A DNA stretch of 64,000 nucleotides. Source: Paramyrothecium sp. XJ0827. Lineage: Eukaryota; Ascomycota; Sordariomycetes; Hypocreales; Stachybotryaceae. The stretch lies in the NCBI GenBank assembly GCA_020881915.1, contig JAJFPB010000004.1, forward strand, positions 3,286,001 to 3,350,000, written 5' to 3'. Positions 1,290-32,478 of the stretch are shown piece after piece. The position numbers and the translations under genes were made by a program. Positions within the stretch are counted from its first letter, which is position 1. Each line of letters starts with the position of its first letter. A model generated the notes under the pieces. That model saw only the letters and a list, made by a program, of their open reading frames with translations, was not told where the DNA came from and ran no database searches.

Positions 1290-1719
1290 TAGGCTTAGGA
1301 AGATTAGTTAACTAAAAATTAGTTATTCTAAATAACTAATAAAAAACTAAAATTTAGTTAATTAAATTTTAGTTATTTATTTTTAGTAACTTTTTAAAAT
1401 CTCTTATATATATATATAAGGTTAGATAATATTATTTATATTATTATCTATATAAATACTAAAATTATTAGCTTTATTATAAGCTATATATTATATCTAT
1501 ATAAATACTAAAATTATTAGCTTTATTATAAGCTATATATTATATCTATATATATAAAGAATCTTATTATATAGCTATATAAATTAACTAACTAAATTTT
1601 AGTTATTCTAAATAACTAATAAATAACTAAAAATTAATTAATTAAATTTTAGTTAGAATAAAAATTAGTTAACTAAAATTTAGTTATTATTTAATTAGTT
1701 AACTAAATTCCCAAGCCTG
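1290..1719. mobile_element. GTTAAC-box MITE (M1)
   Basis: Terminal inverted repeats T-AGGCTTAGGAAGATTAG and AAATTCCCAAGCCTG bound a 430-bp AT-rich body. The direct repeat ATATTTAA lies at 1282-1289 and 1720-1727, a perfect 8-bp target-site duplication. Subterminal AGTTAACT boxes occur at both ends. The body holds a 49-bp tandem duplication (about 1448-1546). No coding capacity, so non-autonomous. Confidence 0.85.
1448..1546. repeat. two-copy 49-bp tandem duplication inside M1
   Basis: The stretch beginning ATCTATATAAATACTAAAAT and ending in AAGCTATATATTAT occurs twice head to tail with no visible difference, so the duplication is young relative to the surrounding erosion. Confidence 0.75.
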
Positions 1720-2159
1720 ATATTTAATAAATCTAAATAAGTATATAAATTATTAAAAAGGTTTTTATTTCTATATTTTAAATATATTATTAGTTCTAAT
1801 TTATTATATTTAAAGTAATATTACTATATTTTATATATAATATTTATTAATTCTTCTAAGGGTTTTTTTCTTTAAATTATTTTATTATAAAGAGCCTTCT
1901 TTATTTCTTTATAAAGAAAATATTATTTATAATTAATATTTTTATTAATTTAATTTACTATTTTTTTATAAATTAATATTTTATTATTATTTTTTTTATA
2001 AATATAAACTTAAAATATTTTTAATTTATATAAAGATCTTTTATTATATTTAAATTAATTTATAACTTAAGATCTTTTTTTTTATAAAGATTTCTTATTT
2101 AATTACTAGAATTATTATTTTTTACTAATATTATTTTTATTTCTTTTAATACTTTTTAT

Positions 2160-2273
2160 TAGGCTTGGGAAGACTAGTTAACTAGAAATTAGTTAACTAA
2201 AAATTAGTTAACTAAAAATTAGTTAACTAGGAATTAGTTATTAGTTAATTAGTTAACTAGTTTCCCAAGCCTA
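2160..2273. mobile_element. GTTAAC-box MITE (M2)
   Basis: A 114-bp copy made almost wholly of TIRs plus repeated TTAGTTAACTA boxes. The left end is T-AGGCTTGGGAAGACTAG and the right end is AGTTTCCCAAGCCT-A. The flanking 8-mers (CTTTTTAT and CTTAGAAG) do not match, so the site is rearranged or the duplication has decayed. A more eroded GTTAAC-like stretch follows to about 2396. Confidence 0.65.
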
Positions 2274-3300
2274 CTTAGAAGCTAAAATTAAGAAAATTAT
2301 TTAACTAAAATTTACTTATTTTAAATAATTAGTAAATAACTAGAAATTAGTTAATTAAATTTTAGTTATTATTTAATTAATTAATTAATTTCTGAGGTTT
2401 TTTAGAAGCTAATTAGTACTAAAAGAGATCTTATTTTAAATTAATTATAATAAATCCTAGAAAGTTAAGTAAAATTCTTCTCTAAGTTCTTAAAATCTCT
2501 ATATTTTTAATTCTTTAGTAAAATAATTTTCTTTATTATTTCTAAATATAGCTAAGATCTTTACTTAATAATAATATTATTATTAGTAAAAAATATTTTA
2601 ATAGTAATAAATATAACTAAATTAATTAAATAATATCTAATTAATATAAATAATATAAAAATTACTAAATATAAAGCCTCTACTAATTTATTATATTAAT
2701 TTATTATAATAATTAGTAAATAATAGTAGTAATATATATATATAATTAAATAATTTCTTCTAGGTTCTAAAAATAAAGAATCTATTATTATTATTATTAC
2801 TAAGGTTATATAATAGATTATATAATTAGCTTAATTACTATAGTAACTTATATAAACTTATACTAAATAATATATATTATTATATTATAAAGATTTATTT
2901 ATATTATTAATTTAAATAAATTAGATTTACTTAATTATTTATTATAATAATAAGAACTTAGTAAATCTTTTTATTTTTACTATTTATAATAAAAGATATT
3001 TAAAGACTTTACTATCTTTAATTAAGGACTTTATTTTTTATATATTTGTCTTAATTTTTAAATTATAGATCTTATTTTTTAAGAAATATAGCTTATTTTT
3101 AAACTTATTTAAATTCTTCTTTATTTTATTAAAGCTAGTTTTTTGGTAGCTCTTAAATTATATAATAGTTTATATTTATTTTTATATTTACTTTAATTAT
3201 CTTAAGATCTTCTATATATATAAATATTAATTAATATTTAACTTTATTACTAGGGGTTTCTTTACTTAAGAGATCTTATTTCTTAAATATTACTTTAGAC

Positions 3301-3362
3301 CAGGCTTGGGAAACTGGTTAACCTATTTTTGGTTAACTTATTTTTGGTTAGTTACCTATTTT
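3301..3362. mobile_element. truncated GTTAAC-box MITE, GGTTAACC type (M3)
   Basis: Begins with an intact CAGGCTTGGGAAACTGG terminus followed by GGTTAACC boxes, then stops where the next element's terminus begins at 3363. No matching right end is visible, so only the left end survives. Confidence 0.6.
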
Positions 3363-4058
3363 CAGGCATAGGAAAGGTAGTTAACTACTAACTAATTAAC
3401 TAAAAAGTAGTTAACTACTAGTAGTTAGTAGTTAATTATTAGTAGTTAGTAGTTAACTACTAGTTTTTATTTAATATTATAAATATATATATTTATTAGC
3501 CTTAAAAATACTAAATATTACATATATTATATTTATATAAATATAAAAAATCTACTTAATATTATAAAATTTATATATATTAAATACTAATAAAAATAAT
3601 TATATTTTAATCTTAATAATCTTATTTTATAATTATATATTTTATTTTTAATATTCCCTTATAGGATATATTTTTATATATATTTAAGGCTTTAAATATA
3701 TATATATAATTATTTAAATAATATAGTAGTTAATTAGTTAACTACTAACTACTAGTAATTAACTACTTTTTAGTTAACTACTTAGTAGTTAGTAGTTAAT
3801 AGTAGTTAACTAATTAGTAGTTAACTAAAAAGTAGTTAACTACTAATTAATTAACTTAAAAGTAGTTAACTAATTAGTAGTTAACTAAAAAGTAGTTAAC
3901 TACTAATTAATTAACTTAAAAGTAGTTAACTACTTAGTAGTTAACTTAAAAGTAGTTAACTACTTAGTAGTTAGTAGTTAATTAGTTAACTTAAAAGTAG
4001 TTAACTACTAGGTAGTTAGTAGTTAACTAGAAATAGTTAACTACTCTTGCCATCCCTG
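3363..4058. mobile_element. GTTAAC-box MITE, AGTAGTTAACTACT subfamily (M4)
   Basis: Left terminus CAGGCATAGGAAAGG, right terminus CTCTTGCCATCCCTG, 696 bp. The right 350 bp is a dense irregular tandem of AGTAGTTAACTACT units joined by AAAAG spacers. The flanking 8-mers (CCTATTTT and CTATACCA) do not match. The element at 31191-31663 has the same layout and reads as a C-to-T/G-to-A mutated relative, with its own intact duplication. Confidence 0.7.
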
Positions 4059-5600: not shown

Positions 5601-6010
5601 TTAGCTTATTAACTTAAGCAGTAAGTCTTACTATCTCTACTATCTATAATAAAGGATCTCTAGTCTAGATTATTAGATTTCCTTAGCTAGATACTTAATT
5701 TTTTTATATTTCTTTTAATCTTTAAATTATAGGCCTTATTTTTAAGAAATATAGCTTATTTTTAAATTTACTTACATTTTCCTTTATTTTATTAGAGTTA
5801 TAATAGGGGAATAGTATATATTATTAGGGGGCCTATTTTTAATAAGGGGATAGTAACTAAGATATCTTAATTTATAATCTCCCCCTACCTAAGCTATATA
5901 TATTTATATAGATTTTAAGTATATAACCCCACTAGTAACTTTATCTTTAGCTACTTACTTAGGTATAATATATTACTTTAATTAGGTAGTGGGTATATAC
6001 TCTATTATAC

Positions 6011-6417
6011 TAGGCTTAGGAAACTGGTTAACCAATTAACCAATAACCTATATTTGGTTAACCAATTTTTAGTTAACCTAATATTGGTTAACTTATTATT
6101 AGTTAACCAATTTTTGGTTTAACTTATTTTTGATTAATCTATTATTAGTTAACCAAATATTAGTTAACTTATTTTTGGTTAATTATCTATTTTCCTATTA
6201 TATGTAAATTAATATCTATAATTATATATATATATATATCTAATAGATATCTTATTATAACTCCTATATAAGCTTTAAAAATCTAGTTATAGCTATTATA
6301 ATAGATAAAAATAAGGTAATTTAATATTAGCTAACCAATTTTTGGTTAACCAAATATTGGTTAACCTGATTTATTTTTGGTTAACCAATTATTGGTTAAC
6401 CAACCTTCCCAAACCTG
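6011..6417. mobile_element. GTTAAC-box MITE, GGTTAACC subfamily (M5)
   Basis: T-AGGCTTAGGAAACTGG to CCTTCCCAAACCTG, 407 bp. The perfect 8-bp duplication TATTATAC lies at 6003-6010 and 6418-6425. Both subterminal regions carry TTGGTTAACCAA boxes, the form before CpA-to-TpA change. The core is AT-rich with no ORF. Confidence 0.88.
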
Positions 6418-6432
6418 TATTATACTAAGTAC

Positions 6433-6730
6433 CAGGCAACGGAAACTAATTAACTAGCTAACTAGAAAATAATTAACTAGAAAGTAGTTAACTAGAAAAT
6501 AGTTATCTTCTAGGGCTTATATATAAAATATAAGCTATAATTCTATATATAAATATATCTAAGGCTAATAAGATTATTTAGAAATAAAGATAATATATTA
6601 ATTATTTAAGTAAATAGAATTAAAATAGTTAGTAACTAACTAGTAGTAACTAGAAAATAGTTAACTAGAAACTAATTAACTAGAAAATAATTAACTAGAA
6701 AATAGTTAACTAGTCTTCCCAAGCCTACTA
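6433..6730. mobile_element. GTTAAC-box MITE, CTAGTTAACTAG subfamily (M6)
   Basis: Begins CAGGCAACGGAAACTAA and ends TCTTCCCAAGCCTA followed by CTA. The direct repeats CTAAGTAC (6425-6432) and CTAAGTGC (6731-6738) match at 7 of 8 bases, the difference being an A/G transition; the CTA in front of the right copy is unexplained. It sits seven bases from the right end of M5, and the two duplications share one base. Confidence 0.75.
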
Positions 6731-7312
6731 CTAAGTGCTAATAATACTACTAATAAATTTAAAACTAATAATATTAAAATTAGACTTAGCAGTACTATAG
6801 CTACTTATATAGAAACTATACTACTACTATAAACTTAATTATAATCTTATCTTTAGTAAGTTCCTTAAGCCCTAGTAGTTATACTAATTTATAATCTCTT
6901 TACTAATAGCACTAGTAATTTAGAGAAGAGCTTATTTATTTTAGATTATAAATAATTATAGTAAATACTAATATTAAATTAAACTATATTATTTTAATTT
7001 AATTACTTTAATTAATAACTTATAATCTAATCTCTACCTCTGCCTCTACCTCTACCTTTACTCTATTATAATAATATTAGTAGTAGTATTAGTATTAGTA
7101 TTATTACTAGTAAAGAAGCTAATTTAAGTAAGGTAGCTTATAATAATATAGGTAATATATAAGGTAGAACTCTTAAGTTTAAAGATATAAGCTCTTTATT
7201 ATTTTATAGGATTCTTAGGTACTCTTAGAGATATATAATAATATTAGGATTATAAATTAGTATTAGTAAGTACTTAATATTTTATTATTTAAAATTAGTA
7301 GATTTCTTATAG

Positions 7313-7590
7313 CAGGCTTAGGAAGACTAGTTAACTATTTCCTAGTTAACTCGAGTTAACTAGTAGTTAACTCGATTCTAGTTAACTATTTTCTAGTTAC
7401 TACTAGTTAGTTACTAACTATTTTAATTCTATTTAATTAAAAAATAAATATATTACCTTTATTTCTATATAATCCTACTAGCCTTAGATATATATATATA
7501 TAGAATTATAGTATATATTTTATATATAAGCCCTTAAAGATAACTATTTTCTAGTTAACTATTTTCTAGTTAACTAGTTTCCCATGCCTG
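7313..7590. mobile_element. GTTAAC-box MITE, CTAGTTAACTAG subfamily (M7)
   Basis: CAGGCTTAGGAAGACTAG to CTAGTTTCCCATGCCTG, 278 bp, with the perfect 8-bp duplication TCTTATAG at 7305-7312 and 7591-7598. Two boxes here read ACTCGAGT, so CpG is retained inside this copy. Its core is a reverse-oriented relative of the core in M6 and M14. Confidence 0.88.
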
Positions 7591-9660: not shown

Positions 9661-9825
9661 CAGGCTTAGGAAACTGGTTAACCAATTAACTAATAACCTA
9701 TATTTGGTTAACCTATTTTTAGTTAACCTATATTTGGTTTAACCAATATTTGGTTAACCAAAAATTGGTTAACCTGATTTATTTTTAGTTAACCAATAAT
9801 TAGTTAACTAACCTTCCCAAGCCTG
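9661..9825. mobile_element. GTTAAC-box MITE, short GGTTAACC copy (M8)
   Basis: CAGGCTTAGGAAACTGG to ACCTTCCCAAGCCTG, only 165 bp. The flanks GGAACTAT (9653-9660) and GGAAATAT (9826-9833) agree at 7 of 8 positions. It is an internally deleted relative of M5, built from boxes with almost no core. Confidence 0.8.
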
Positions 9826-11010: not shown

Positions 11011-11447
11011 CAGGCTTGGGAAGACTAGTTAACTAGAAATTAGTTAACTAGAAATTAGTTAACTAAAAATTAGTTAACTAGGAATTAGTTAACTAAAAAC
11101 TAGTTAACTAAAAATTAGTTAATATATATAAATATATATAATAAATTTACTTTATTATATATAAATATATTATTAGTATTAATATTTAGGGTATATTTAA
11201 TACTTAAATATAAAATTAAATACTTATATTTAATATAAGATTTAAATTATATATTTAATTAAAATCTAATTAACTAATTCCTAGTTAACTTAACTAATAA
11301 CTAACTAACTAATTTTTAGTTAACTAATTTCTAGTTATAACTAAAAATTAGTTAACTAGAAATTAGTTAACTAGAAATTAGTTAACTAAAAATTAGTTAA
11401 CTAGGAATTAGTTATTAGTTAATTAGTTAACTAGTTTCCCAAGCCTG
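11011..11447. mobile_element. GTTAAC-box MITE (M9)
   Basis: CAGGCTTGGGAAGACTAG to CTAGTTTCCCAAGCCTG, 437 bp, with the perfect 8-bp duplication GGTTCTAG at 11003-11010 and 11448-11455. The 12-bp termini are intact. The arms are runs of TTAGTTAACTAA boxes, about six on each side. The core has no ORF. It interrupts a copy of dispersed repeat R1. Confidence 0.9.
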
Positions 11448-12303: not shown

Positions 12304-13043
12304 GGCCTAAGGATTACTAAATTACTAGGTAAGTTACTAAGCATACCTGCCTATAGCTTCTAGTTATAGAGGACCCTATAAATCCTATAAATCCATTTAT
12401 ATTAAGTAATAAATTAAATTTAGGTCTTAATTTAGCTTTTTAGGCTAATATATAATTCATAGTATATATTAGTAATTTAGTAATATAAGATATATCATTA
12501 GATTTTCTATTAACTAATTCTAAAGTAGCTAATATCCTTAATTATATTTATTTAATTATAAATAATATAAATAGATCTAATAATATTATTTAATTTAATC
12601 TAGAGAATTAAGATATTAGATTTAGAAGTAGGTACTATAAGTCCCTTATATATATATAAGAGATCTTATAAATTGAATCTATTAAATTTCCTTATTAATT
12701 AAATATATTAATAAGAACTAGAGGCTAAATATTAAGTATTTAGTACCCTAGCTACAGAAAAATATTAAATTTCTATAGATCAGTTATATTATATTATTAT
12801 TATTATAATATTTTTAGATACTATAACTTAGTAGAACTTAATATATTATATACTAGAGGTAATTATTAAACTAAAAAAGCCTCTCTCTTATATATATAGA
12901 AATATAGCTAATAAGGAATTTAAAGATATATTTCTTATTAATATTAATTAAGCTAAAACTAAGGCCCTAATAGCCCTATTTAAGATCCTAATAAGGCCTT
13001 TAATTTAATTATGAAATTAGTTATATATAATACTCCCTAAAAG

Positions 13044-13337
13044 CAGGGTTAGGAAGATTAGTTAACTAAAAATTAGTTATTTATTTTTAGTAACTTTTTA
13101 AAAACCTATATATATATAAGAGCTTATGTAATATTATTTATTTATTTATTTTTATATATATTCAGACTTTTTAGCTTTATTATTTACTATATATAGTACT
13201 TATATATATATAGAATCTTATTATATAACTATATATATATAATAAAATTAATTAACTAAAATTTAGTTACTTTAAATAACTAATAAATATCTAAGAATCA
13301 GTTATTATTTAATTAGTTAACTAATTTCCTAAGCCTG
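13044..13337. mobile_element. GTTAAC-box MITE (M11)
   Basis: CAGGGTTAGGAAGATTAG to AATTTCCTAAGCCTG, 294 bp, with the perfect 8-bp duplication CCTAAAAG at 13036-13043 and 13338-13345. The core resembles that of M1 and M18, so these three form one subfamily. Confidence 0.88.
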
Positions 13338-16300
13338 CCTAAAAGTGTCTTATATATATATACATTATATAGGAACTTAAAAAATATTAAAATAAATATA
13401 TTAAATATATTAAATATATCAATAATTCTAATTATAAAAATTATATAAGTTATTTCTTATATTATATTACTTTTCTTATATTCTTATATATATAATACTT
13501 ACTACTTTATATATTAAGGAATTTCTATAGTTATTTAAGTTCTTATATTACTAAGGGCATAATTAAATTAAAGAAATGTTTTTTAATAAGCTAATAGCTA
13601 GAGGCCATAAGAACATAATTAATTATATGTCCTATTTACTAGGGCTTATATTAGATTCTTAGTATTAATTATAGTATTTTATAAAATCTAATCTCTTAAT
13701 TTACTATTTAAATATTAAATTAGATATAATAAAGTTAATTATTATTAAATATAATCAGTAAGTAAATTCCCTAGCTCTTAGTTATATATATATTTATATA
13801 CTAATATTATTTATAGACTTAAAGGCCTTAATAGGGCTATTAATATTATTATATTTTTTAATAAATTAAGAGATAATAAAATTAGATCTTTATTAATTAA
13901 ATTCTCTTTAAATATCTTAGATAATAGTAAGTTATATATAAATAAAATAACTACTAATAATAAACTATTATTTATTTAAAAGGGAAATATATTCTTAAGA
14001 ATGTAAGTTATTATATATATATATATATTATATTATTACTATTATTTACTAATTACTATAAGAAATTAATATGTTTAATTAATAAAAGTGTCACGCCAAG
14101 CATCGGCTTTCTTATTAATCTCTTAAAGCTATTTATATATATATATTTGCAACTAAGGTTAAGTAATTTCTATTTAGAGTTATAAATTAATATAATTATA
14201 GATTTATATTATAATTACCTTATTATCCTTTATATAATATATGCTCATAAAATAGGTAACTTATATAGCAAATATATATATAGAGTTACTATAGTAATAT
14301 TCTATTAGGCCAAATTAAAGGGCATTTAGCTCCCTCTAGGCTTTACTTATATTTATTTAAAATTACTCTATAAGTATATTAGTCCAAAGTTATAGTAATA
14401 ATCTATAATAATATATATATCTTTTCTCTTTTATACAAAATCCCCTATATTAATTAAGAGCCTTACCTTAAAGTAGTTATACTATCTACTTATATACCTA
14501 GTAATAGTAATCTATAATTATAATATCTTTAAGGGATTTAATAAATATAAATATATCTTAGAAGTAATATATTATACCTTAGTAGAAGATATCTTCTTCT
14601 TCTTTAGTATTAGGCTAAAAGATATTAATAATTTTTATTTTAAACTTAGGTTTTAATATTCTACTAAATTTAATATTAGAATCTATATTTAATTTATATA
14701 AGTTATTACTTAGGAAGAAGAACTACTTTCTTTTAGAATAATTCTAGGGATATTATCTATATTTATTATAATTATATTAGCTATATCTATTATTAAATAA
14801 GTTATTATTATTTAAGTTACTATATAGATTATTATATTATTAATATTATTTATTATACTAATTAACTATTTAAGGTTATAGTATTAGCTATTTATTATAA
14901 TTATTATATATAGATTACCTATTATATTATATTTATAGGAACTTAGATCTATAATACTATCTATAGTCTTATTTATTAAGTTCCCTTAAATAGTATAGAA
15001 TAATTATTAGTTATTAGGGAGGTACCTCTTATACTAAATAATATTTATAGATCTTATAATAATACTATTTATTATTTAGTTTAGTAGATCTAGGATTTTA
15101 TATACTAATAGAAGTATATCTCCTAGCTTATTAGTTATTAAGCTATTACTAAAGTTTATTAGAAAAAACTTCTCTATTACTAAGAGCTTATATTATATTT
15201 TATATTTAATATTCCCTATTATTTATTATTAGTTAAATTAAATACCTAGATCCCCTCTTCTTAGGGTATATACCTACTATATCTAGGTAATAATCCCTAG
15301 ATCTAATTTCTTTATTATCTATAGCTATTTAGGGCCTAAAGGGCTTATTAATTTAGGAATTAATATTAGCTAGTTCCTATAATATAACTATTAATAATAA
15401 TAATTAGTAAAATATAAGAAAATTTATCTTAAATAATATAATAAAGGTTATAAATAATTATAGATCTACTTTAGTAGTAATTATAGAAATATAGTTAATT
15501 AATATTAGAGGTATTAAAGTCTCTATTTATCTTATATTATTATAGTTCTTAGGTAGTTCTATAATTATTACCTATTACTAATTATAAGTAGAAGCTACTA
15601 GCTCTTTTTTAATTATACCCTTTATAATAAATTATAACTAAAATAATATTATTAGCTTACTTATAAATAGTTAATATAGTTATTTACTTTATTTATATTT
15701 TTTAGTAAGTATAAGTAAATAAGGGGTAGTAAATTATTATATTAAAGAAGTAGTAATATAATAGTAAGGTACTAATTTATTTACTAAAGAATTAGAAAAT
15801 AAGTTATATCTTTAGTAAATAATTAATTTAATAGCTTATATAGATTAGATAGTATTTAATACCTAATTAATAATAATATAAACTAATTATAGGTTATTTT
15901 ATATTAGTAGATATTTAGTATTAATCTAATAATTAACTTATAGGTATTAATTATTATACTTAATTAGAAAATAAATATTTAATATATACTAATAGTTAAG
16001 GGCGTAATCAAGTAGAAAATACTTTAAAAAGTACAATAGTTAATATACTAAATATAAAATATCTATAAGCCTATTTATTTATATAGATTACTAAATAGTT
16101 AAGGTAAGTAAACTAAATTAATAGGTTATTAACTAATAAATAATAAGTAATAGGTTCTTAATAAATAGTAATTAATAGATAGTAGTTAATAAATAATATT
16201 AATAAATAGTATTTAATAGATAGTTAAGGGCCTACTACTTAACTTATAGTTAATAAGTAGTATAAAGCCTTTATAGGAGTATAATTACTACTAATTATTA

Positions 16301-17214: not shown

Positions 17215-17621
17215 CAGGCTTAGGAAATTAGTTAACTAACTGAATAATAACTAAAAATTAGTTAGAATAAAAATTAGTTAACTAGTTTTTAGTTATTTAC
17301 TAGTTATTTAGAATAACTAAAATTTAGTTAGTTAATTTTATTATATATATATAGCTATATAATAGAATCCTTTATATATATAAATATAATATATAGCTTA
17401 TAATAAAGATATTAATTCTAGTATATATAAAAACAATAATATAAATAATATTATATAAGCTTATATATATATATAAGAGCTTTTAAAAAGTTACTAAAAA
17501 TAACTAACTAAATTTTAGTTAACTAAAAATTAGTTAGAATAAAAATTAGTTAACTAAAATTTAGTTATTTACTAGTTATTTAGAATAACTAATTTTTAGT
17601 TAACTAATCTTCCTAACCCTG
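17215..17621. mobile_element. GTTAAC-box MITE at a breakpoint (M12)
   Basis: CAGGCTTAGGAAATTAG to AATCTTCCTAACCCTG, 407 bp, same internal plan as M10. The left flank is AGCTATAG, part of dispersed repeat R1. The right flank is GGCCCCTA, part of the triplicated segment. The two flanks belong to different repeat families and do not match, unlike most copies. This suggests recombination between two elements rather than a simple insertion. Confidence 0.75.
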
Positions 17622-18611: not shown

Positions 18612-18663
18612 GGGACTAACTCCGTGCCCACTATAAATCAATATTTGCCTACTACTTTTGTAG
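18612..18663 (+). mobile_element. isolated TIR fragment of the 26-kb element family
   Basis: Matches the left terminus of the 25980-26522 element over about 52 bp (CTCCGTGCCCACTATAAATC is identical), with differences mainly of C-to-T/G-to-A type. It lies exactly where copy A stops resembling copy C. No partner terminus was found downstream. Confidence 0.6.
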
Positions 18664-20800
18664 TAAATAAGACTAAGCTCTAATTTCTGCTCTACTATAT
18701 ATTTTTATAGGAATTAATAGTATATTAATCTCTTTAATATCTTATATATAAAGTATAAGATTATATAATATAGTCTTAAAATATAATATAAAAAGCTTAA
18801 TTAATTATATTATATTAGCTTATTATTACTACTACTATTAAGATCTAATTTACTAAGTAATTACTTTATAGTAAGTCTCTTTAGTAGTAATTTAATTAGT
18901 ACTTAATATAAACCCTTATTATTATCTATAATATTACTATTTTTCTTATTACTTTAGCTAAGTAAATTAAAGCTAGCTATAAAAATATATAAAGTTACTT
19001 ATAATATTTATATAGCTCTTATTTCTAGTAATTATTGTAGTAGAAGTTTATTATAATTAATCTTAGTAATTAATATTTACTAATATACCCTTAGTATCTC
19101 TATATTTACCTTATATATATTTAATTAAAAAAGCTATTATAATTTAACTTTAGTAGTAATATACTTTCTAAGAAATATTACTATAGGTACTATAGAAAGT
19201 AGTAATATAATAACTATAGTTTTTTCTACCTTAAGTCTCTTAAGGGCCTTAATATATTTAAAAGTAACTAGATCTTATAAACTTAAGTTATTTAGTATTT
19301 TCTATAGAATAAGGGTACTCTTAGATTAGCCCTTACTTCTAATAATAAAGGGCTCTAATTAATCTAAAAAAGCTACTTTATTTCTCTTAGCTTAAATATA
19401 GTTCTAATATTAATAAGAATTAATATAATATAGAGATATAAATTACTTATTTTTTTATAAAGTAATAAGGTAATAGTAGTAAAATAAATTATATATAATT
19501 ATAATCTTATAAGGTAATAATTTCTAGTATTTTTATAATATAATATTATTATTAAGTTCTTCTAATAATATTCTTATTTCTCCTTAAATTAATTTAAGTA
19601 CTATTAATAAAATCTTCTAATAAATAAGAGTATAAAGAATATTTAAAGAGAAGATTAATATTTTATTTATTCTAATAGCTCTTTTTAATTTAATACCTAT
19701 ATTTTTTTTTAAAGAAAAGTAAGAGCTTCTTAAATATAATACTAAGATTATTTATATTTATAGTAATATATTTCTTAATTATAATATAAAATAATTTAAT
19801 AATAGAAGTAATTAAATTACTAAAATAATAATATTTATTTATAAAATAAACTATAAGCTTTTCTTTTTATAGCTAAATTTAGATCTTAAAAGTATATTTC
19901 TTAATATTAACTAGTTAATTAAAAATTTTAATAAATATAGTAAATTACTTATTAAATAGTTCCTTAAAGCAATTATTAATAAGTATAACTTAAGTTATAA
20001 AGAATATATTAAAGCTAAGATCTTAAATAATCTCTTTAGTAATTAAATTCTTTATTATTTTAAAGAAAAAGTTCTTATACTTAATAAGAATATTCTTATT
20101 AATATATTAATAATAATAAAAATATAAAACTTCTTATAAAATAGTATTTATATTAAAAGTCTTTATTAAAGTAATCTTATAATTAGTAACTATAACTTAG
20201 GGTTATTTAATACTAAATTCTTTTATTAATATTATTATTTATTTAATAATTTAAATATATTATACTTTAGTTTCTTTATTTATAAATATAGTAATAATAT
20301 AGAAGATTTTATATATAGATAGTATTTTATAAATATTAAATATTAATATCTTATAGTAATTTATTTTATATATATTATTAAAGAACTATATATTTAAATA
20401 ATTTTTTAAAAGCTAGATTTCTAATATTAGTATAATAAATAAAAAAAGAAAGTAATCTTTATTATTTATTAATTCCTAGATCTATATCTTATTACTCTCT
20501 TATAGTATATTAAGTTAATTAAAGAAATATTATATAGAGATTTAGTTAACTAGCTACTTAAGATTATTATAATAGGATAATAGGCTTTAAAAAGCCGGCG
20601 AATCCATAATATTAAAAGACATATTATTGTCTATTAGGAAATTTAGGACCTTATAAAGGGCTTCCTTTTCCGAAAATCGATTAGCTATAGCTATAAGGCC
20701 CCTAGAGCATTTACTAGGGGTCTAAGGCGTATAAGAGCTAGTAGCTATAGGGCTTAAGAAATTGGCTTCTATAATATATTAAATTAGTATTATTTATATA

Positions 20801-20840
<40 letters not shown>

Positions 20841-21138
20841 AAAATAACTTACTTCTTTTTCTAGTAGATTTAGAGGCCTTATTATAGGCTATATTACAAT
20901 GCTTTTTCTTATAATACCTCGCTAGATTTAAAATACCGGTTATAAGCTTACTAGCTTTATAAGTAGCTTAAAAATCGCACCTATAAATATATATATAAAT
21001 TAGTAAATACTATATATATATTAGGAAAACTTATATATTATAATCGCAATGAATTTCCCTTTCTTTAAATTCGATATAGGGTAATAAGACCCTAGTAAAT
21101 AGGTTATTTGCAAATATATATACAGAAGAAGCCAATAG

Positions 21139-21348
21139 CTAATATTTAGGGTTAAAATAATTAGCTATAGAGCTACTAGCGGCATCCGAGCTTCTAATAG
21201 ATTCCGAGGGCCTATTAGAGGCCTCTTCTAAATCTATAGTAGAATTATAATCTACTATAGATATATTAGAGGCCTCTATAGCATCTGTAGGCAGCTGGGT
21301 ATTGGGTAGGGAAATAGGGGAGCCCTCAGAGGCACTAAGAGGCTCCAT
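21139..21348 (-). pseudogene. N-terminal fragment of an unidentified transposon-type protein
   Basis: A 69-codon ORF rich in Ser, Asp and Glu ends at a stop directly after FNPKY. Upstream, the frame continues as SDYSDD, preceded by ATA; in copy C the same place is ATG. The true start was therefore probably lost by G-to-A change. Copy C lacks the ORF but aligned codons continue past the stop as a basic region. An acidic, disordered N-terminus before a DNA-binding region would fit a fungal DNA-transposon protein. I do not recognise the family, and no catalytic motif is visible. Confidence 0.5.
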
Positions 21349-21485
21349 ATCGTCCGAATAGTCAGATATTGTAAATAGATATATATATATATATATATAA
21401 TATATATATAAAAAGGGTAGTTATAATAGATAGATAGTAGTGGATAGGTTACTAGATAATTCTATAGTGAAGATAGAATTTTAGG

Positions 21486-21749
21486 CAGGCTTGGGAAAGT
21501 AGTTAACTACTAACTACAAAGTAGTTAGTTAGTAACTATAAAATAAATAAAATAATAATTATTAAATTAACTATTAAGGAAATTAATTTTAACTTTTTTC
21601 TTAAAGTATATTTATAAGATAAGGGACCTAATACTATATTTTATATTATTATATTTAATAAAAAGGTTTTAATTAAATAATAAAATTAATTAAAATTAAT
21701 TCTTTACTAACTACAAAGTAGTTAGTAGTTAACTACCTTCCCAAGCCTA
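21486..21749. mobile_element. GTTAAC-box MITE, AGTAGTTAACTACT subfamily (M13)
   Basis: CAGGCTTGGGAAAGTAG to CTACCTTCCCAAGCCTA, 264 bp, with the perfect 8-bp duplication ATTTTAGG at 21478-21485 and 21750-21757. It is inserted in copy B of the triplicated segment. The matching place in copy C (about 24770-24780, ATTCTTAGAG) is uninterrupted, a paralogous empty site. Confidence 0.92.
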
Positions 21750-22435
21750 ATTTTAGGGAAGGAAATAGAGGTTCTTTTATAGAAATTAACCTCCTACTAA
21801 TTCCTAGAGATTCTTTTCTCTTCTAGAATCTAAGTTTCCCTATTTCTAAGCATTTCTAAGTATTAAAAATCAATTCCTAAGCATTAGAAATCAATCCCTA
21901 TAAAATAGGAAGGGATTTACAGGTTATATAACTGCCTGCAGCCGGCAATTAAATTTTATAGTAGGAAATCTATCTGCCGGCCTTGGCAGCTAAAAATCCC
22001 CTGCTATTATTATAGGAATTATAATCAGAAATTGCCCAAGCCTATAGATCTTTTCCTAACTAGGAAAGAGTATATATTAAAATATATAATAGATATATTA
22101 TTAGTATATAGATTATTTCCTAAAATTATATAGGAAATTATATATAATATTAAAATATAAACTATATTATAGTATAAGGTTATTTTTCTATATTTTTCTC
22201 TATTTTATATATAATATTATAGCTTATATTAGATCCTAGTATCTCTTAAGCTCTAATTCCTTACTTTAGAGACTTTTAGAGATTTCTATATTAAATATAT
22301 ATATTCTAGGGTCTAGGGTAGTTAATATAAGCTTAGAAAACTCTTATAGAGTAAATAACTATATTATATATCTTTATAATATTTTATATATTTATATATA
22401 TTATCTATATATATATTTGAAAATTATTTAAAGTA

Positions 22436-22725
<290 letters not shown>

Positions 22726-22728
22726 AAT

Positions 22729-23064
22729 TATAACTAGTTAACTGGAGTCAGGCATGGGAAACTAGTTAACTAGAAAATAGTTAACTAGAAAATAGTTATC
22801 TTTAAGGGCTTATATATAAAATATATACTATAATTCTATATATATATATATCTAAGGCTAGTAGGATTATATAGAAATAAAGGTAATATATTTTTTTTAA
22901 TTAAATAGAATTAAAATAGTTAGTAACTAACTAGTAGTAACTAGAAAATAGTTAACTAGGAAATAGTTATAACTAGAAACTAGTTAACTAGAATCGAGTT
23001 AACTAGTCTTCCCAAGCCTGACTGGAGTTAACTAGAAAATAGTTAGCTAGTCTTCCTAAGCCTG
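22729..23064. mobile_element. outer GTTAAC-box element split by M14 (M15)
   Basis: Remains of an older element: a left piece with TAACTAGTTAACTGGAGT before 22749 and a right piece from 23021 that ends GTCTTCCTAAGCCTG at 23064. Removing M14 and one copy of ACTGGAGT restores continuity of the box array. The left terminus is missing and probably lies beyond the ATT microsatellite. Confidence 0.6.
22749..23020. mobile_element. GTTAAC-box MITE nested in another (M14)
   Basis: CAGGCATGGGAAACTAG to CTAGTCTTCCCAAGCCTG, 272 bp, with the perfect 8-bp duplication ACTGGAGT at 22741-22748 and 23021-23028. It is inserted inside the box array of M15. The core resembles those of M6 and M7. One box reads AATCGAGTT, so a CpG is retained. 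Confidence 0.9.
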
Positions 23065-23344
23065 ATATTCTGTAATACTAGAATAAGGGGATAAGGCAAA
23101 TAGGAATTCCTTATAAATATTAAGGCCTATATAAGCCACTTGAAGTTTATTAAAGCCTAAATAGTAGTTAGTTATATATATATATATAAATATAGATAAT
23201 ATAATAATATAATAGTAAATAATATAATAGTAGATAATATAATAAAATAAATAACTTACTTATAAGCTTATAATATAAGGTAAAATTACTATCTAGGAAA
23301 ATAGTAATAATTCCTAGATAGGAAGCCCCTATATTTAAATACCA

Positions 23345-25090
23345 TATATTAAATATAAGGGAAAATGCCCTATTAGATCGAATATTATCTTCTAATTAAT
23401 TATTTAGGGCCCTAAGGCCCTTTTCGAAGGTATTAGATAATAATAATTGTATTCTTTTCCTATTAATAATAGGGGCCTTACTAAATAGATATATATATAT
23501 TAGCTTATATATAATAAACTAAATAAATAAGAATAATTATAGTAATTTAGGAGATATTAGGTAGTAACTTAAAAAGGAATTATAGCTAGGGAAGTAATAT
23601 ATAATTAAAATAAAAATCCTTACTTACCTATTATAATAGGATAATAGGCTTTAAAAAGCCGGCGAATCTATTATATTAAAAGAGATATTATTTTCTATAA
23701 GGAAATTTAGGATCCTATTAAGGGCTTCCTTTTTAAAAATTAATTTACTATAGCTATAATATCCCTAGGGTATTTACTAGAGATTTAAGGTATTATAGAG
23801 CTAGTAGTAATTAGGCTTAATAGATTAGCTTCTATATTAAATTAGTATATTATATTATATTATATTATATTATATTATATTATATTATATTATATTATAT
23901 TATATTATATTATATTATATTATATTATATTATATTATATTATATTATATTATATTATATTATATTATATTATATTATATTATATTATATTATATTATAT
24001 TATATTATATTATATTATATTATATTATATTATATTATATTATATTATATTATATTATATTATATTATATTATATTATATTATATTATATTATATTATAT
24101 TATATTATATTATATAGGAAATAGAGAAAATAAAATATAACTTACTTCTTTTTCTAACTAATTCTGATTTTTTATTATAGGCGATTTTAGGGTAATTATT
24201 TTAATAATACCTAGCTAGATTTAAATATATTAAGTTTAATTTCCTAGCTTTATAAGTAGCTTGAAAATTATATCTAGATATATATATATATTAGCATATA
24301 ATAATAAAGCTTTATATATATATAGAAAAAAAGAAAATATAATAAAGAAATAAATAACTTATATAGTACATTTATATAGGACCTCTCTTTTCTTATTATT
24401 ATTATAAGGTAAAAGAGCCCTAGTAAATAGATTATTTATAAATATATATGCTAATATAGGTGCTAGTTAATATTTAGGGTCGAAATAGGTCGCTATTACA
24501 GCTACCAAGCTACTAGTAGTAGATATAGGGGCCCTAGGGGTCTCTTCTAGGTCCCTACTAGAATTAAATTCTATAAGGGAAATAGTTAAGGCCTCTATAG
24601 GGTCCGTAATTAGCTAGGTATTAGGCATAGAGGCCTCAGAGCCACTAATAGATTAAAGGTCGTCCAAATAGTTAGACATATTAAATATATATATATAATA
24701 GATATATATAAAAAATAGGGTAATTATAATAGATAGATAGTAGTAGAGTAAATAGATAGTTACTTAGTAAAGAAGAATAGGATTCTTAGAGAGGAATTAA
24801 GTCTTCCTTTATAGAAATTTTCTTCCTACTATTTCCTAGGAATTCCTTTCTCTTCTAGAATCAAAGATTTCCTATTTCTAAGCATTAGAAATTAATTCCT
24901 TCCTATTTTATCTACCTGCATTTTTAGCTGCCTTAGCATTAATAAGGAATTTAGAATTATCCTATAGTAGGTCTTATAGTTATTATAGCTAATGCGGGCA
25001 CTAATAAAAGTCCCTCTAGTAAATGTAGCTAGTTATATAGCTAAAACCGGATATTAGCCGAATGTAGATCTTTTCCTAATTAGGATATTA
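23345..25090 (-). repeat. triplicated transposon-like segment, copy C
   Basis: Parallel to copy B and inverted relative to copy A. Landmarks are GGGCCCTAAGGCCCTTTTCG (23410s), TTTAAAAAGCCGGCGAATC (23650s) and AGTAGTAGATATAGGGGCCC (24520s). A 269-bp (TATAT)n array has grown inside it at 23846-24114; copies A and B have only short AT runs there. Reading frames are all broken. Confidence 0.65.
23846..24114. repeat. (TATAT)n pentanucleotide array
   Basis: About 54 copies of the five-base unit TATAT with no visible interruption, lying within copy C. The purity points to recent expansion. Confidence 0.97.
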
Positions 25091-25137
25091 TATATATTTA
25101 TAGAGATTTATTTTTAAATATATTTATATAGATTTTT

Positions 25138-25440
25138 CTATATTTATAGCTAAAATATTAGCTAATTATATAGCTATTTAAACTAAAGTATAGTTTAGAG
25201 CAAATTAGAGCTTAAGGAATTATTTAATTTTAAAAGTACTATATATATCTATACTATATATATATATATATATAATAAAGATATTATATATATTATAATT
25301 ATATATAGAATTTATATAAATATTTTTAGTTCTATATATATTTTCTTTAGCTAGTTATATAGCTATTTAAACTAAAGTATAGTTTAGAGTAAATTAGAGC
25401 TTAAGGAATTATTTAATTTTAAAAGTACTATATATTACTA
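25138..25440. repeat. direct duplication of about 95 bp, spaced about 200 bp
   Basis: The stretch from AGCTATTTAAACTAAAGTAT to AATTTTAAAAGTACTATATA occurs near 25165 and again near 25360 with only one or two differences. Alternating AT dinucleotides lie after each copy. Confidence 0.8.
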
Positions 25441-25552
25441 TATTATATATATATATATATATTAGAAAACATTATATATATATTAGAAAACATTATATAT
25501 ATTATAGTTATATATAGTATTTATAAAGTTATTTAATATATATATATATATA

Positions 25553-25753
25553 ATAACTAATATTTGGTTAACTAAAAATAAGTTAAACAAAATAAGTTAA
25601 CCTATATTTAGTTAACTAATAATTAGTTAACCTATAATTGGTTAACTAAATATTGGTTAACTTAATATTAGTTAACCAAAAATAGGTTAAACCAAAAATA
25701 GGTTAATCAATTATAGGTTATTGGTTAATTGGTTAACCAGTTTCCCAAGCCTG
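25553..25753. mobile_element. 5'-truncated GTTAAC-box MITE (M16)
   Basis: Contains a long run of TTGGTTAACCAA-like boxes and ends GGTTAACCAGTTTCCCAAGCCTG at 25753 (boxes and terminus read together). No CAGGCTTGGG terminus was found at the left, where a TA microsatellite begins, so that end is lost. Confidence 0.65.
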
Positions 25754-25979
25754 CTATAATTACTACTACTCTTTTTAGTACCTATATTATATAATTTAAT
25801 ATATAATTCTACTATAGCCCTAGGGCTTTAGTACCTTCAGTAATATAGAGATTTATATAAGTTTAGTATAAAGAAATAAAATATCTTTAGTTATATATTT
25901 AATATAATAGGCGTTTTATATAAAGCAAAAGTAATATTTTTTTGACTTGAAAATAAAGTGAAATAAAACAATAATGAAA

Positions 25980-26522
25980 GGGACCCACTCCGTGCCCACT
26001 ATAAATCGATATTTGCCCACCACTTTTGTGGCTAAGGTGGCTAAGTAAGTATATTTTTTATAGCTAGTATTTCCATTAATAATTAAAATATAAAAGAATT
26101 AATTTAAAATTAAATAGAAATAATATAAATATATATTAGTACTATATAATATTATATAAGGTCCTATTATATATTTATATATTTTAGTAAATATTTTATA
26201 TAATTTCTATTATTTTTATATACTTAAGATCTTCTTAGAAAGTTTAAAGGTATTTTCTAAATCTCTATAGCTTTAATATTAAATAAAAATATAATAATAG
26301 AATTAAAATCTGTAGTAATTAGTATATATATATATAAGTAATATAGCTATATTATATATATTTCTTTGTATTTTATAATACTATATATATTTAGATATTA
26401 TAATAAGAAAACATAGGAATTTAAAAGATATTTAGCCCTCTTACCTAATGTAGTTAGAATACCTCTCTAGCCACAAAAGTGGTGGGCAAATATCGATTTG
26501 TGGTGGGCACGGAGTCGGTCCC
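25980..26522. mobile_element. second TIR element family, 55-bp termini
   Basis: Inverted termini of 55 bp at 25980-26034 and 26468-26522 begin GGGACC and share CTCCGTGCCCAC and ATCGATATTTGCCCACCAC, with about three mismatches. The flanks TAATGAAA (25972-25979) and TAATAAAA (26523-26530) match at 7 of 8, the difference being a G-to-A change. The 430-bp interior is AT-rich without an ORF. The 8-bp duplication fits a hAT-like element unrelated in terminus to the GTTAAC-box family. The termini are unusually GC-rich for this block and keep their CpGs. Confidence 0.8.
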
Positions 26523-27563
26523 TAATAAAAAAGCTAATTAATTAAATAACTTAATAATATTATAATAACTTCAAAATATATTTTAATTTCTAATAAGTAT
26601 TATTCTTTTAATTTTCTAGGGAATTAAATTATAAACCTTTTTAAAAGTCTATAACTTATTATATAATCTTAATAATAGTAGTAATAACAGGTCTCTTATT
26701 CTTAGTACCTAGGAGTATAATATATTATATAATATTATAATATATCTATATTATATTCTATCTAAGTAATAAATATCTTATTAAGAGATTTACTTTTTTT
26801 TCTTTTTTTCTTTAATACTTTTATAATTATATTAATCTCTTCTCTTTTACTATTATTATATCTTTTTATATATAAAGACTTTTTTATTTAGCTCTTTATT
26901 ATATTTATTATTTCCTTACTTATATTTACTTAGCTTTACTTTTAATTTTTATTTATTATTATAATAAATAAGCTCCTCCTAGGTACTAAGAATAAAAGAC
27001 CTATTATTACTACTATTACTAAGGTTATATAATCTATTATTAAGAAATTTATTAAGATAACCTAAATTTAAGAATTTCTAATAGGGACCTAGATATAATA
27101 AAAATAAATATAATCTATTATATAATTAATTTAATTACTATAGTAACTTATATAGATCTTAGATAATATATATTATTATACTATAAGAAATTTATTACTT
27201 CTTAAGAAATAGATATTATTACTTAAAATAAGTTAGATTTATCTAAGTATCTCCTATAATAGCAATAGCTTTAGGGATATATATAGGCCTCCTCTAATTA
27301 ATTTTTAAATATCTTATAAATCTTTTATCTAATCTCTTATTTAAGCTCTTAAATATCTTTCTATTAGCCTTACTAAGCTTTTTATTTCTAGATTAATTAG
27401 CTATATTTTAAATATAACTTAGTTCCTACTTCTTAACTAGATTTATAGTACTTTTCTTTAATTATTAAATCTTATTAATAATTAAACTATCTTTAATATT
27501 TACTTTAATTATAACTTAGGCTTCTATATATTTAGAATTTAATTAATATATAGTAATACTTAT

Positions 27564-27755: not shown

Positions 27756-28074
27756 CAGGCATAGGAATTAGTTAACTAATTAACTAATAACTAAGATTTA
27801 GTTAACTAAATCTTGCTTATTTTTAGTTAGTAAAAATAGAACCTATTAAATTAAATCGAATATTAAAATTCAAATCCTTATATATAAAATAATCTATATA
27901 TAGTATATACTAGATAAATAGCTATATAATAATATAAATATAACCTTATATTAAAAATAGCTATTTATTGTTTATTAGGGTCTTATTTCTAATTAACTAA
28001 GATACCTTATAATTAACTTAAAAAAGCCTCACTAACCAAGATTTAGTTAATTAGTTAGTTTTTTCCTATATCTG
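27756..28074. mobile_element. GTTAAC-box MITE (M17)
   Basis: CAGGCATAGGAATTAG to TTTTTTCCTATATCTG, 319 bp, with the perfect 8-bp duplication CTTATAGG at 27748-27755 and 28075-28082. The boxes are sparse and the core differs from the other subfamilies. One Cys-rich-looking stretch near the ends is just the terminal motif. No ORF. Confidence 0.82.
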
Positions 28075-28159: not shown

Positions 28160-28411
28160 TAATAAATAGAGATTTTAATTATAATAAGGTAGAATATAAG
28201 TAGAATTTTATATTACTATTCTTTAATTTAATTTAGCTTTATTTAGACTAAATAATATATATTACTATAGAACTTATATTAACTTTAGCTTTATTACTAC
28301 TATTACTATAGCTATAGCTATAAGATCTTAGTAGTATAGTAATATCTTAATAGCTCTATTAAGTTCCTATTAAAATAAATAGCTTAAGTTTTATAAGTAT
28401 CTATAATATAT
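28160..28411 (-). repeat. dispersed degraded repeat R1, inverted copy
   Basis: Runs through TATAGCTATAGCTATAAGAT and ends AAGTATCTATAATATA, where it meets the forward copy starting at 28412. The two copies form a large interrupted inverted repeat. Confidence 0.55.
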
Positions 28412-29165
28412 TAAGAAATTTATTAAAATAATCTAAATTTAAGAATATTAAATAGGAATATAAATATAATAAAAGTAATTTAATTAAGATGTTAAATATC
28501 TAGAACCCTAGATATAGTAATAATATAGTTAGTAATAAATGTATTTATAATAAATATAATATATTATAGGTACTTATAAGGCTTAAGTTATTTATTTTAA
28601 TAGAAATTTAATAGAGCTATTAAGATATTACTAGGGTTAGAAAGATTATTTAATTAAAAATTATTTATTCTAAATAACTAATAAATAACTAAAATTTATT
28701 TAGTTTTTATTTAAAATAATTTTTAATTAATTAAAATTTAGTTATTTATTTTTAGTAACTTTTTAAAAACCTCTATATATATATAAGCTTATATAAGATT
28801 ATTTATTTCTTTATTTTTATATATATTAGAACTTCTTAGCTTTCTTATTTACTATATATAGTACTTATATATATATTAAATCTTATTATATAACTATATA
28901 TATATAATAAAATTAGTTAACTAAATTTTAGGTACTTTAAATAACTAATAAATAACTAGAAATTAGTTATTATTTAATTAGTTAATTAAGTTCCTAAGCC
29001 TAGATATTACTATATTACTTATATCTAAATAAACCTTATAACTATAGCTATATTAATACTTATAATAAAGCTAAAGTTAATATTTATATTCTATAATAAT
29101 ATATATTATTTACTTTAATAAAATTAAATTAAATTACTTAAAGAATAGTAATATAAAATACTACT
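28412..29165 (+). repeat. dispersed degraded repeat R1, forward copy split by M18
   Basis: TTAAGAAATTTATTAAAATA to GATATTAC at 28631, continued after M18 from 29003. Together with the preceding inverted copy it gives opposed AAGTTTTATAAGTATCTATA and GGTACTTATAAGGCTTAAG arms. Confidence 0.55.
28632..29002. mobile_element. GTTAAC-box MITE, heavily mutated (M18)
   Basis: T-AGGGTTAGAAAGATTA to AAGTTCCTAAGCCTA, 371 bp, with the perfect 8-bp duplication GATATTAC at 28624-28631 and 29003-29010. Many boxes have lost the central GTTAAC (for example TTTAATTAA), so this is an older copy of the M1/M11 subfamily. Confidence 0.82.
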
Positions 29166-30240: not shown

Positions 30241-30904
30241 CTGGCTATAATAAAGTTAAATTAAATTAGATAATAATAATATAAAATTTACCTATACTTT
30301 ACTTTATTATAATTAAAATCTTCTATAGATCTATTTATTACTAATATTAATAATAAAAGATCTACCTAATTGATAATAAATTCTTAAAATACTTTCTCTT
30401 AAGAAGCTAGAATCTATATTAATGCCTATAAATAAGAACCCTTAAGGATTATAAGATTATTTCTATATATTAATTAAGTCCTAAGAAAATAAAAGTTATA
30501 ACTAAAGAAGATATTAAAAATAACCTAAATATTAATAAGATTTAATAACTAAAGAAAAATATTATTAATTTTATTAAGTAATAGAAACTAAATTATATTT
30601 AAAATATAATTAATTAATATAAAAAAGGAGATCTAATAAAGCTAAAAGAGAATTATTTAAGATATTAAATAAGAGATTTAAAAAAAATATAGGACTAAGT
30701 ATTAGAATTAGAATATTAACTTAAATTAAAGCTCTTATTATTATAAAAGATAATAAAATAAATCTAATTTATTATAATTAAAAATAGCTATTTTTATAAG
30801 ATTATAAGATTAATTATTTTACTTAATCTTATTTATAGCTATAAAGATAAATAAATTTCTTATAATATAATAATATATATTATTTAATATAAGTTTATAT
30901 AAAT

Positions 30905-31190
30905 TACTATTAAGAAATTTATTAAAATAATTTAAATTTAAGAATATTAAATAGGAATATAAATATAATAAAAATATTTTAATAAAGAAATTTAATACCT
31001 AGAATCTTAAATATAGTAATTATAATATTAATAATAAAGATATTTATAATATAATATATTATAAGTACTTATAAGACTTAAGTTATTTATTTTAATAAGA
31101 ACTTAATAGAGTTATTAAGATATTATTATATTACTAAGATCTATATTAAATAAACCTTATAATTATAGCTATAGTAATACTAGATATAGA
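30905..31190 (+). repeat. dispersed degraded repeat R1, forward copy
   Basis: TTAAGAAATTTATTAAAATA to TATAGTAATAC, where MITE M19 is inserted; it resumes at 31664 with AGTAATACTAGTAGTAAAGC. Confidence 0.55.
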
Positions 31191-31663
31191 AAAGTAATTA
31201 CCTACTAACTAATAAACTAAAAAGTAATTAATTACTAGTAGTTAGTAATTAATTATTAATTTATAATTAATATTATATTTTTATATATATTTAAAAATAC
31301 TAAATACTATATAATATATATATATATAGATATAAAAATATACTTAATATATTAGAATTAATATATATTAAATACCAATAGAAATAATTATATATTAATT
31401 TTATTAATCTTATTGATTTTATTATATAATTATATATTTTAATGTTAATTTTCCCTTATAAATCCTATTTTAATATATATTATAAGCTTTTTATAAATAT
31501 ATATATATATATTTAAATATTATAGTAGTTAATTACTTTTTAGTTAACTAATTAGTAGTTAGTAATTAATAGTAATTAACTATAAAGTAATTAACTAAAA
31601 AGTAGTTAATTACTAGGTAGTTAGTAGTTAACTAGAAATAATTAACTACTCTTATTATATCTA
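31191..31663. mobile_element. GTTAAC-box MITE, RIP-mutated M4 relative (M19)
   Basis: T-AGATATAGAAAAGTAATTA to ACTACTCTTATTATATCTA, 473 bp, with the perfect 8-bp duplication AGTAATAC at 31183-31190 and 31664-31671. Aligned to M4, the termini differ almost only by C-to-T/G-to-A (CTTGCCATCCCTG becomes CTTATTATATCTA). Confidence 0.82.
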
Positions 31664-32409
31664 AGTAATACTAGTAGTAAAGCTAAAGTTAATATAGATT
31701 CTATAGTAATATATATTATTTACTTTTAATAAAGTTAAATTAAATTATAGTAGTAAAATTATTTAAAAATAGTAATATAAAAATCTACTTATTTTCCTTA
31801 TTATAGTTAAAATCTCCTATAGATCTATTTATTATTAATATTAAGAGTAAAAGAGCTACTTAATCTACTATAATAACTAATCCTTAAGATACTCTAATAG
31901 TTATTAATTAGTCTTTAAAGCCTATAAATAAGAATCCTTAAAGATTATAAGCTTTTAAATTATTTCTATATAATAATTATATTACTATATAGAAATCTAA
32001 GTTATAATTAAAGTAAATATTAAAAATAACTTAATTATTAATAAGATCTTATAATTAAAGAATAGTACTATAAATCTAATTTAAAAAAATAGAAAGTTAG
32101 TTATATTTATAATATAATTAATTAATTTAAGAATAAGAAGCCTAATAAAGTTAATAAGAAGATATTAAAGAGCTTAAATAAGAGATTAGATTAGAGATTT
32201 AAAAAGATTTAATAAAATAGAACTCCTAAAGCTCTTATTATTATAAGAAATAATTAAATAAATCTAACTTATTTTAATTAATAATATTTATTTTATATAA
32301 ATAAAGTTCTTATTATATAATAATATATATTATAGATCTATATTTCTCCTAGGTACTAAGAATAAAAGACCTATTAATATTACTATTACTAAGATTATAT
32401 AATAGATTA

Positions 32410-32478
32410 TAGGCTTAGGAAATTAGTTAACTAATTTCTAGTTAACTAAGTTTTAGTTAACTAATCTTCCTAAGCCTG
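32410..32478. mobile_element. minimal 69-bp GTTAAC-box element (M20)
   Basis: T-AGGCTTAGGAAATTAG to AATCTTCCTAAGCCTG with three or four AGTTAACT boxes and no core, flanked by the perfect duplication ATAGATTA at 32402-32409 and 32479-32486. The termini and boxes alone therefore appear sufficient for insertion. Confidence 0.9.

Follow-up and report, generated by a model that had tools for sequence, protein, structure and literature searches.

The window analysed here is a 64,000-nucleotide stretch of the Paramyrothecium sp. XJ0827 genome, C10:3286001-3350000, where C10 is one of the 15 contigs (C1 to C15) of a 51.8-Mb assembly. Its first 34 kb have a GC content of 9-24% in 2-kb steps; to their right lie genes in sequence of ~51% GC. 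For one metabolic enzyme encoded in that right half, the best named relatives are in Hypocreales at about 72%, and the best match is a JGI protein at 80%. The window holds only the right part of this AT-rich block, which extends leftwards to about C10:3279000. No open reading frame (ORF) of 100 aa is present in the AT-rich part, and Rfam and tRNA searches gave no matches. Observed/expected ratios in the block are 0.18 for CA, 0.15 for TG and 1.37 for TA, compared with 1.12, 1.14 and 0.70 on the right side; the strong depletion of CA and TG is a mark of repeat-induced point mutation (RIP). Scattered through the block are the subject of this study, short elements whose arms carry arrays of a GTTAAC box, together with relics of hAT transposons. 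The features, with target-site duplications (TSDs) where present, are as follows.

1-34400, no strand: AT-rich, RIP-mutated block without long ORFs, from GC and dinucleotide ratios
1290-1719, no strand: non-autonomous element, TSD ATATTTAA
2160-2273, no strand: element with both termini, without TSD
3301-3362, no strand: truncated element, left terminus alone
3363-4058, no strand: 696-bp element, box arrays at 15/30/60 bp, without TSD
6011-6417, no strand: non-autonomous element, TSD TATTATAC
6431-6727, no strand: element with a diverged left end
7313-7590, no strand: non-autonomous element, TSD TCTTATAG
9661-9825, no strand: non-autonomous element, TSD GGAACTAT/GGAAATAT, 7/8 match
11011-11447, no strand: non-autonomous element, TSD GGTTCTAG, clean empty site on C8
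11883-12303, no strand: non-autonomous element, TSD GGCCTAAG, 97-99% partial or whole copies in other contigs' blocks
12785-14060, plus strand: decayed hAT transposase relic
13044-13337, no strand: non-autonomous element within the preceding relic, TSD CCTAAAAG
17215-17621, no strand: element with both termini, without TSD, adjoining a hAT relic
17617-18611, plus strand: RIP-mutated hAT relic with 84% identity to the C7 element described below, over positions 1201-2162 of that element
20565-21854, minus strand: hAT relic, 73-80%, split by the next element
21486-21749, no strand: non-autonomous element, TSD ATTTTAGG, clean empty site on C8
22749-23020, no strand: non-autonomous element within an apparent remnant of another copy, TSD ACTGGAGT
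23067-25753, minus strand: the window's largest full-length-type hAT relic, terminus CAGGCTTGGGAA, box array 25567-25737
27756-28074, no strand: non-autonomous element, TSD CTTATAGG
28632-29002, no strand: non-autonomous element, TSD GATATTAC
31181-31663, no strand: strongly RIP-mutated element, exact TSD AGTAATAC on both sides
32410-32478, no strand: 69-bp element, TSD ATAGATTA, empty sites including C7:2413306-2413423

The initial annotation had described about twenty such elements of 69 to 696 bp, twelve of them with 8-bp duplications. With RIP-aware termini, all twelve duplications proved real, 11 of them exactly at the starts given. The copy placed at 31191 also carries its exact duplication, and its true start lies ten bases away, at 31181. 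A thirteenth duplicated element, at 9661-9825, differs by one base between its two sides; together with about seven truncated, nested or undated copies, these make 'about twenty' a fair count. The 69-bp element stands as described, whereas the 696-bp one has no duplication in the flanks read. The 12-bp ends vary as expected under RIP (CAGGCTTGGGAA, CAGGCTTAGGAA, TAGGCTTAGGAA).

In 290 kb of the same genome (the window plus parts of C10, C7, C4, C8 and C12) we found 34 elements with exact 8-bp duplications and five with a one-mismatch duplication. When termini were paired allowing up to two mismatches, 32 of 50 pairs had flanks identical at exactly 8 bp, against an average of 0.14 for shuffled mates, and no flank matches occurred at lengths 4-7 and 9-13 over the 50 pairs. 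When one flank was displaced by 1-5 bases, the 179 pairs of the window yielded no match or a single one at each shift. Termini without duplications, which the initial annotation had said would count against it, do occur in part: 18 of the 50 pairs lack an exact duplication. The 34 exact duplications and that of the full-length element described below comprise 35 different 8-mers. PMC10368747 reports a target preference of nTnnnnAn for the hAT transposon Hermes. The count of A at position 7 in eight of the twelve original duplications was correct; over the larger set the preference is modest (T2 plus A7 in 41/70 versus 0.41 expected, p = 0.002).

We then compared the joined flanks of the 35 insertions with the same genome stretches, accepting as an empty site a match of at least 85% identity with at least 30 bp on each side and no gap within 20 bp of the junction. 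A clean unoccupied site was found elsewhere for 17 of the 35, the full-length element included; nine others had poorer junction-spanning matches and nine had none. For those 17 insertions the clean empty sites exclude a larger repeat unit as the source of the duplications, the other objection that the initial annotation had raised. Spread by segmental duplication was likewise ruled out by the empty sites. Some elements sit in parent-type copies: for C7:2422255-2422654, the unoccupied counterpart, C7:2447483-2447602, lies within the full-length element. The elements are short (69-790 bp for 42 of them) and non-coding, the family has terminal inverted repeats and duplications, and a parent-type element is present on C7, as expected of miniature inverted-repeat transposable elements (MITEs).

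That parent-type element answers the suggestion of the initial annotation to look for a full-length hAT with the same ends. It was found as a relative with like ends, 5,099 bp long, at C7:2444677-2449775. It is flanked by the TSD GTTATAAC and ends in CAGGGTTGGCAA and CAGACTTGGGAA, with 7 GTTAAC boxes in one arm and 9 in the other; its empty site is C4:228225-228344. The gene model comprises 11 exons, and 9 of its 10 introns are short, GT-AG and frame-keeping. Its translation matches Dimer_Tnp_hAT (PF05699) with a Pfam E-value of 9.7e-22 and, in the Protein Data Bank, four transposase sequences, two of them named Hermes, with E-values of 4.4e-15 to 1.2e-14 (Hermes 4.4e-15). Transposase relatives are 41-45% identical, one of them named, from Sarocladium strictum. 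In the best domain of the alignment with Hermes, whose catalytic residues are D, D and E, the E of ...AAIEAIF... falls on Hermes ...AASERTF..., and the aspartate stretches are weak matches. A Pfam scan of the translation found no chromodomain. With 8-bp duplications, empty sites and a full-length hAT bearing like ends and arrays, the identity of the short elements as hAT-type MITEs, first proposed from the window, is borne out.

The largest relic of the window, at 23067-25753, is 82-89% identical in pieces to positions 1-2457 of the C7 element, and relative to that element RIP sites in its two pieces were changed at 44/72 and 23/30, with 2 and 0 changes in reverse. Copies such as this one show the directional C-to-T change at CpA expected of RIP targets. 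Two copies on C4 lack the directional bias (10 against 10 and 7 against 11).

The arms of the elements are built on one motif. The window contains 113 copies of GTTAAC, where shuffled sequence has 15.9 on average, and 107 of the 108 occurrences in the AT-rich block fall within 18 drawn element intervals, a count that is partly circular in that some intervals were drawn in part from the boxes. Spacing between boxes is 15 bp in 84 intervals and 30-31 bp in 48. The three bases on either side of GTTAAC vary among subfamilies yet remain complementary: in the 31 of 43 elements with at least three boxes (twelve with fewer were excluded), consensus flanks pair at position one in 31/31, at position two in 30/31 and at position three in 26/31. 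These values were unreached in 2000 reshufflings across elements, a comparison that overstates independence because the elements share ancestry. Box versions include TTAGTTAACTAA, TTGGTTAACCAA, CTAGTTAACTAG, TAGGTTAACCTA and TAAGTTAACTTA. RIP could yield TTA...TAA from TTG...CAA, and CTA...TAG from a CTG...CAG form; it does not explain the TAG...CTA and TAA...TTA versions. Symmetric paired changes that keep the 12-bp box palindromic suggest a site for a dimeric binding protein. Its likeliest reader, by analogy, would be the transposase, since Hermes has a quasi-palindromic pair of subterminal repeats bound by two BED domains, according to PMC10368747. Two other ideas about the boxes were dropped. 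Immunity to RIP is at odds with strongly mutated copies such as 31181-31663, which retain just two GTTAAC; and a search for a separate large family with CAGGGATGGCAA-N4-GTTAAC returned 19 places, 14 of which are known CAGGCATGGGAA ends, and no such family.

Where in the genome does this lineage lie? A block was defined by consecutive family matches with less than 15 kb between them, extended by 15 kb, and we assigned matches to inside or outside from their coordinates; a row is one matched piece, and several rows can come from one copy. Searches scored the best candidates: 40 of 61 for the transposase DNA, 40 of 121 for a 421-bp MITE and 123 of 260 for the transposase protein, and the 183 matches of the transposase DNA search were listed in part. 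The statements that follow hold among the matches listed. A terminus-plus-box pattern gave 127 matches; its reversed form gave 3. The 100 that were listed all belong to interior clusters, of which C4 has two and every contig from C7 to C15 has one. Transposase DNA rows with E<1e-20 lie in clusters in 59 of 59 cases, as do all listed matches of the 421-bp MITE; transposase protein rows, in ranked order, all lie in clusters until a different hAT on C2, 26% identical, appears as the first one outside. An apparent second hAT lineage, 72-78% identical to the C7 element, is also found in clusters only, and sites at 73-75% include C7:2451537-2454359, C15:1376769, C14:1622206 and C12:2705071. Among the matches listed, this distribution agrees with that expected of a centromere-specific transposable element, whose copies lie almost entirely in one block per chromosome, although C4 has two blocks and five contigs have none. 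The clusters span ~25-70 kb on contigs of 3.2-6.5 Mb (C4, 1.0 Mb) and include C7:2.40-2.47M, C8:3.45-3.50M and C10:3.28-3.32M.

As controls we used two other decayed repeats of the same block. Outside the clusters lay 22/40 and 23/45 of their rows, and inside them 18/40 (all 40 rows) and 22/45 (first 45 rows). Fisher tests against 59/59 gave p of about 2e-11 and 6e-11, with rows that are not fully independent. Two of the outside control places, C1:89001-92000 and C12:4516801-4519200, have a GC content of 17% and 20% and CA at 0.01 and 0.04 of expectation, and neither contains GTTAAC; RIP-mutated AT-rich DNA without the family therefore exists outside the clusters. A plain preference for AT-rich targets could draw on the weak T2/A7 bias of the duplications, and is improbable as an account of the location: these two places are equally AT-rich and lack the box, and no family match was listed outside the blocks.

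The same places bear on retention, in which hAT elements insert everywhere, selection or deletion removes the copies on the arms, and gene-free blocks alone keep theirs. Such loss is a general expectation for transposable elements, and the block has no ORF of 100 aa. Yet the two RIP-mutated AT-rich stretches fetched outside the blocks hold repeats of the block and, among the matches listed, none of the family. C2, C4 and some arms also carry other hAT lineages in abundance, which shows that these places tolerate hATs in general; we regard retention as unlikely. The hAT dimerisation domain, sought across the genome, had 150 scored matches, mostly on C2 and C4 and 11 of them within the element clusters. 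The matches on C2 and C4 belong to other hAT lineages, many with long open frames, and these two contigs might be accessory chromosomes or parts of one.

Taken together, we read the elements as MITEs of a hAT lineage that, among the matches listed, is confined to AT-rich blocks, and these blocks as most likely centromeres; we put the probability of this reading at roughly 0.8. In number, position, composition and lack of genes the blocks fit RIP-mutated regional centromeres like those of Verticillium (PMC7482064). A transposase supplied by an intact relative would bind the arrays of the 12-bp palindrome centred on GTTAAC and cut at the CAGGSWTGGSAA ends. Insertion leaves an 8-bp duplication. 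The copies found occupy a single AT-rich block on every one of nine large contigs and a pair of blocks on the small C4; there they nest in one another and are in many cases eroded by RIP-type mutation. Two routes could explain their confinement: centromeric chromatin may be targeted, or copies may jump from one centromere to another where these cluster in the nucleus.

The second of these routes can also be put without any chromatin preference: the transposase would reinsert nearby in the nucleus, and clustered centromeres would exchange copies. hAT elements are known for linked transposition, and MITE matches 97-99% identical occur on different contigs. Fungal centromeres co-localise in the nucleus, as PMC7482064 reports. 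Local hopping should, however, also seed the flanking arms, and the few flanks fetched, the right half of the window among them, contain no element flanked by a duplication; such hopping is possible, if somewhat improbable. Spread by recombination or gene conversion between centromeres, which the many repeats common to the blocks might suggest, is very improbable: the 35 different duplications and 17 clean empty sites contradict it for the tested copies. A stronger form of targeting, in which the transposase recognises centromeric chromatin and the arrays seed every centromere with sites for a dimeric protein, in the manner of CENP-B boxes, so that the element both targets centromeres and helps build them, we consider distinctly doubtful.

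Several observations weigh against the confined, centromeric lineage. The blocks were located through the elements themselves, which makes the confinement statistics partly circular, and the controls reduce this without removing it; with the best candidates alone scored, copies outside the blocks could be missed; and 'centromere' is itself inferred from the position, number and composition of the blocks. The matches listed place no block on C1, C2, C3, C5 or C6, contigs that may represent parts of arms or else chromosomes lacking the family. As single motifs, 12-bp termini are also present on arms, at 26 of 100 listed places. Genome-wide, the bare 12-bp terminus with allowed variants occurs at 287 places against 43 for a reversed control, and the listed outside places are at about the chance rate. 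One arm candidate, the facing exact termini at C7:4669097 and 4671769, was rejected, having unlike flanks, no duplication, no box and 55% GC. The transposase adds further difficulties. At its first exon junction the C7 copy lacks a donor that could be used in the phase required, and the loss is of RIP type; the copy is probably non-functional, and residues of the translation across this junction are unreliable. A donor at this place is kept in a copy on C4, and the C7 element is the best-preserved copy found. Pfam reports no BED finger in the C7 translation, in which the first junction is damaged, nor in the relatives P0121 and P0127, in both of which a Cys/His pattern can be seen by eye.

Further observations concern the contigs. 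C4 (1.02 Mb) carries its two element clusters at 203000-235000 and 870000-919000, perhaps a second or former centromere block. In C4:900001-910000, transposase frames flank a hAT copy at 1411-2709 and 5666-7404 of that stretch; DDE_1 and HTH_Tnp_Tc5 are matched by the first, and the second has a similar appearance. Among the 30 contig ends read, a clear CCCTAA array (12 copies) is present only at the start of C13; three others carry one to three copies and the remaining 26 carry none. By eye, a subtelomere-like sequence is common to about half of the 30 ends (C3, C5, C7-C15). Within the window, a separate inverted-repeat element at 25979-26523 has 77-nt arms that are 83% complementary and 391 nt apart; its ends contain more CA/TG than their surroundings, and similar letters occur near 18605-18670. 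Long, nearly pure tandem arrays (92-100% matches) with units of 12, 5 and 8 bp lie in the AT-rich block at 22434-22736, 23846-24115 and 33658-34047.

Beyond the initial annotation, a full-length partner has been found and the family seems restricted to centromere-like blocks. We found no description of a centromere-confined hAT in a fungus among the titles and abstract openings listed by searches of an open-access library, in which few subscription papers are covered. If the reading is true, there would be another route to the centromere, by a new targeting device or by hopping between clustered centromeres, and the two become testable, each insertion being marked by 8-bp duplications and empty sites. 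In Paramyrothecium sp. XJ0827 the elements might in addition be used as sequence markers of putative centromeres.

Compared with known systems, the family resembles Hermes and other hATs in its 8-bp duplications, short terminal inverted repeats, Dimer_Tnp_hAT domain and sequence match to Hermes. It differs from them in having arms that consist of a single 12-bp palindrome in arrays, spaced mostly at 15 and 30/31 bp, in the intron-rich gene of the C7 element and in a distribution limited, among the matches listed, to centromere-like blocks; its unusual traits are this confinement and the arms given over to one palindrome. In its distribution it is closer to VdLTRE9 of Verticillium dahliae, a RIP-degraded repeat that is gathered into a single AT-rich block on each chromosome, with 204 of 215 copies at centromeres (PMC7482064). 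VdLTRE9 is, however, LTR (long terminal repeat) retrotransposon-like and comes with CenH3 data, whereas here a DNA transposon and its MITEs are known from sequence alone. Beelzebufo/Kyoko of Asterochloris and Cereba/Quinta of wheat are centromere-specific retrotransposon pairs, described as such in PMC12542154, and share with our family the presence of autonomous and non-autonomous partners in centromeres, which for our family are putative. Beelzebufo differs in being a retrotransposon with a chromodomain fused to its integrase, a domain not found in the C7 translation. The centromere-specific transposable elements described in the literature consulted, as far as those sources extend, are retrotransposons, one of them with such a fusion; the hAT lineage, if correctly read, would be a DNA-transposon counterpart of these centromere-loving retrotransposons.

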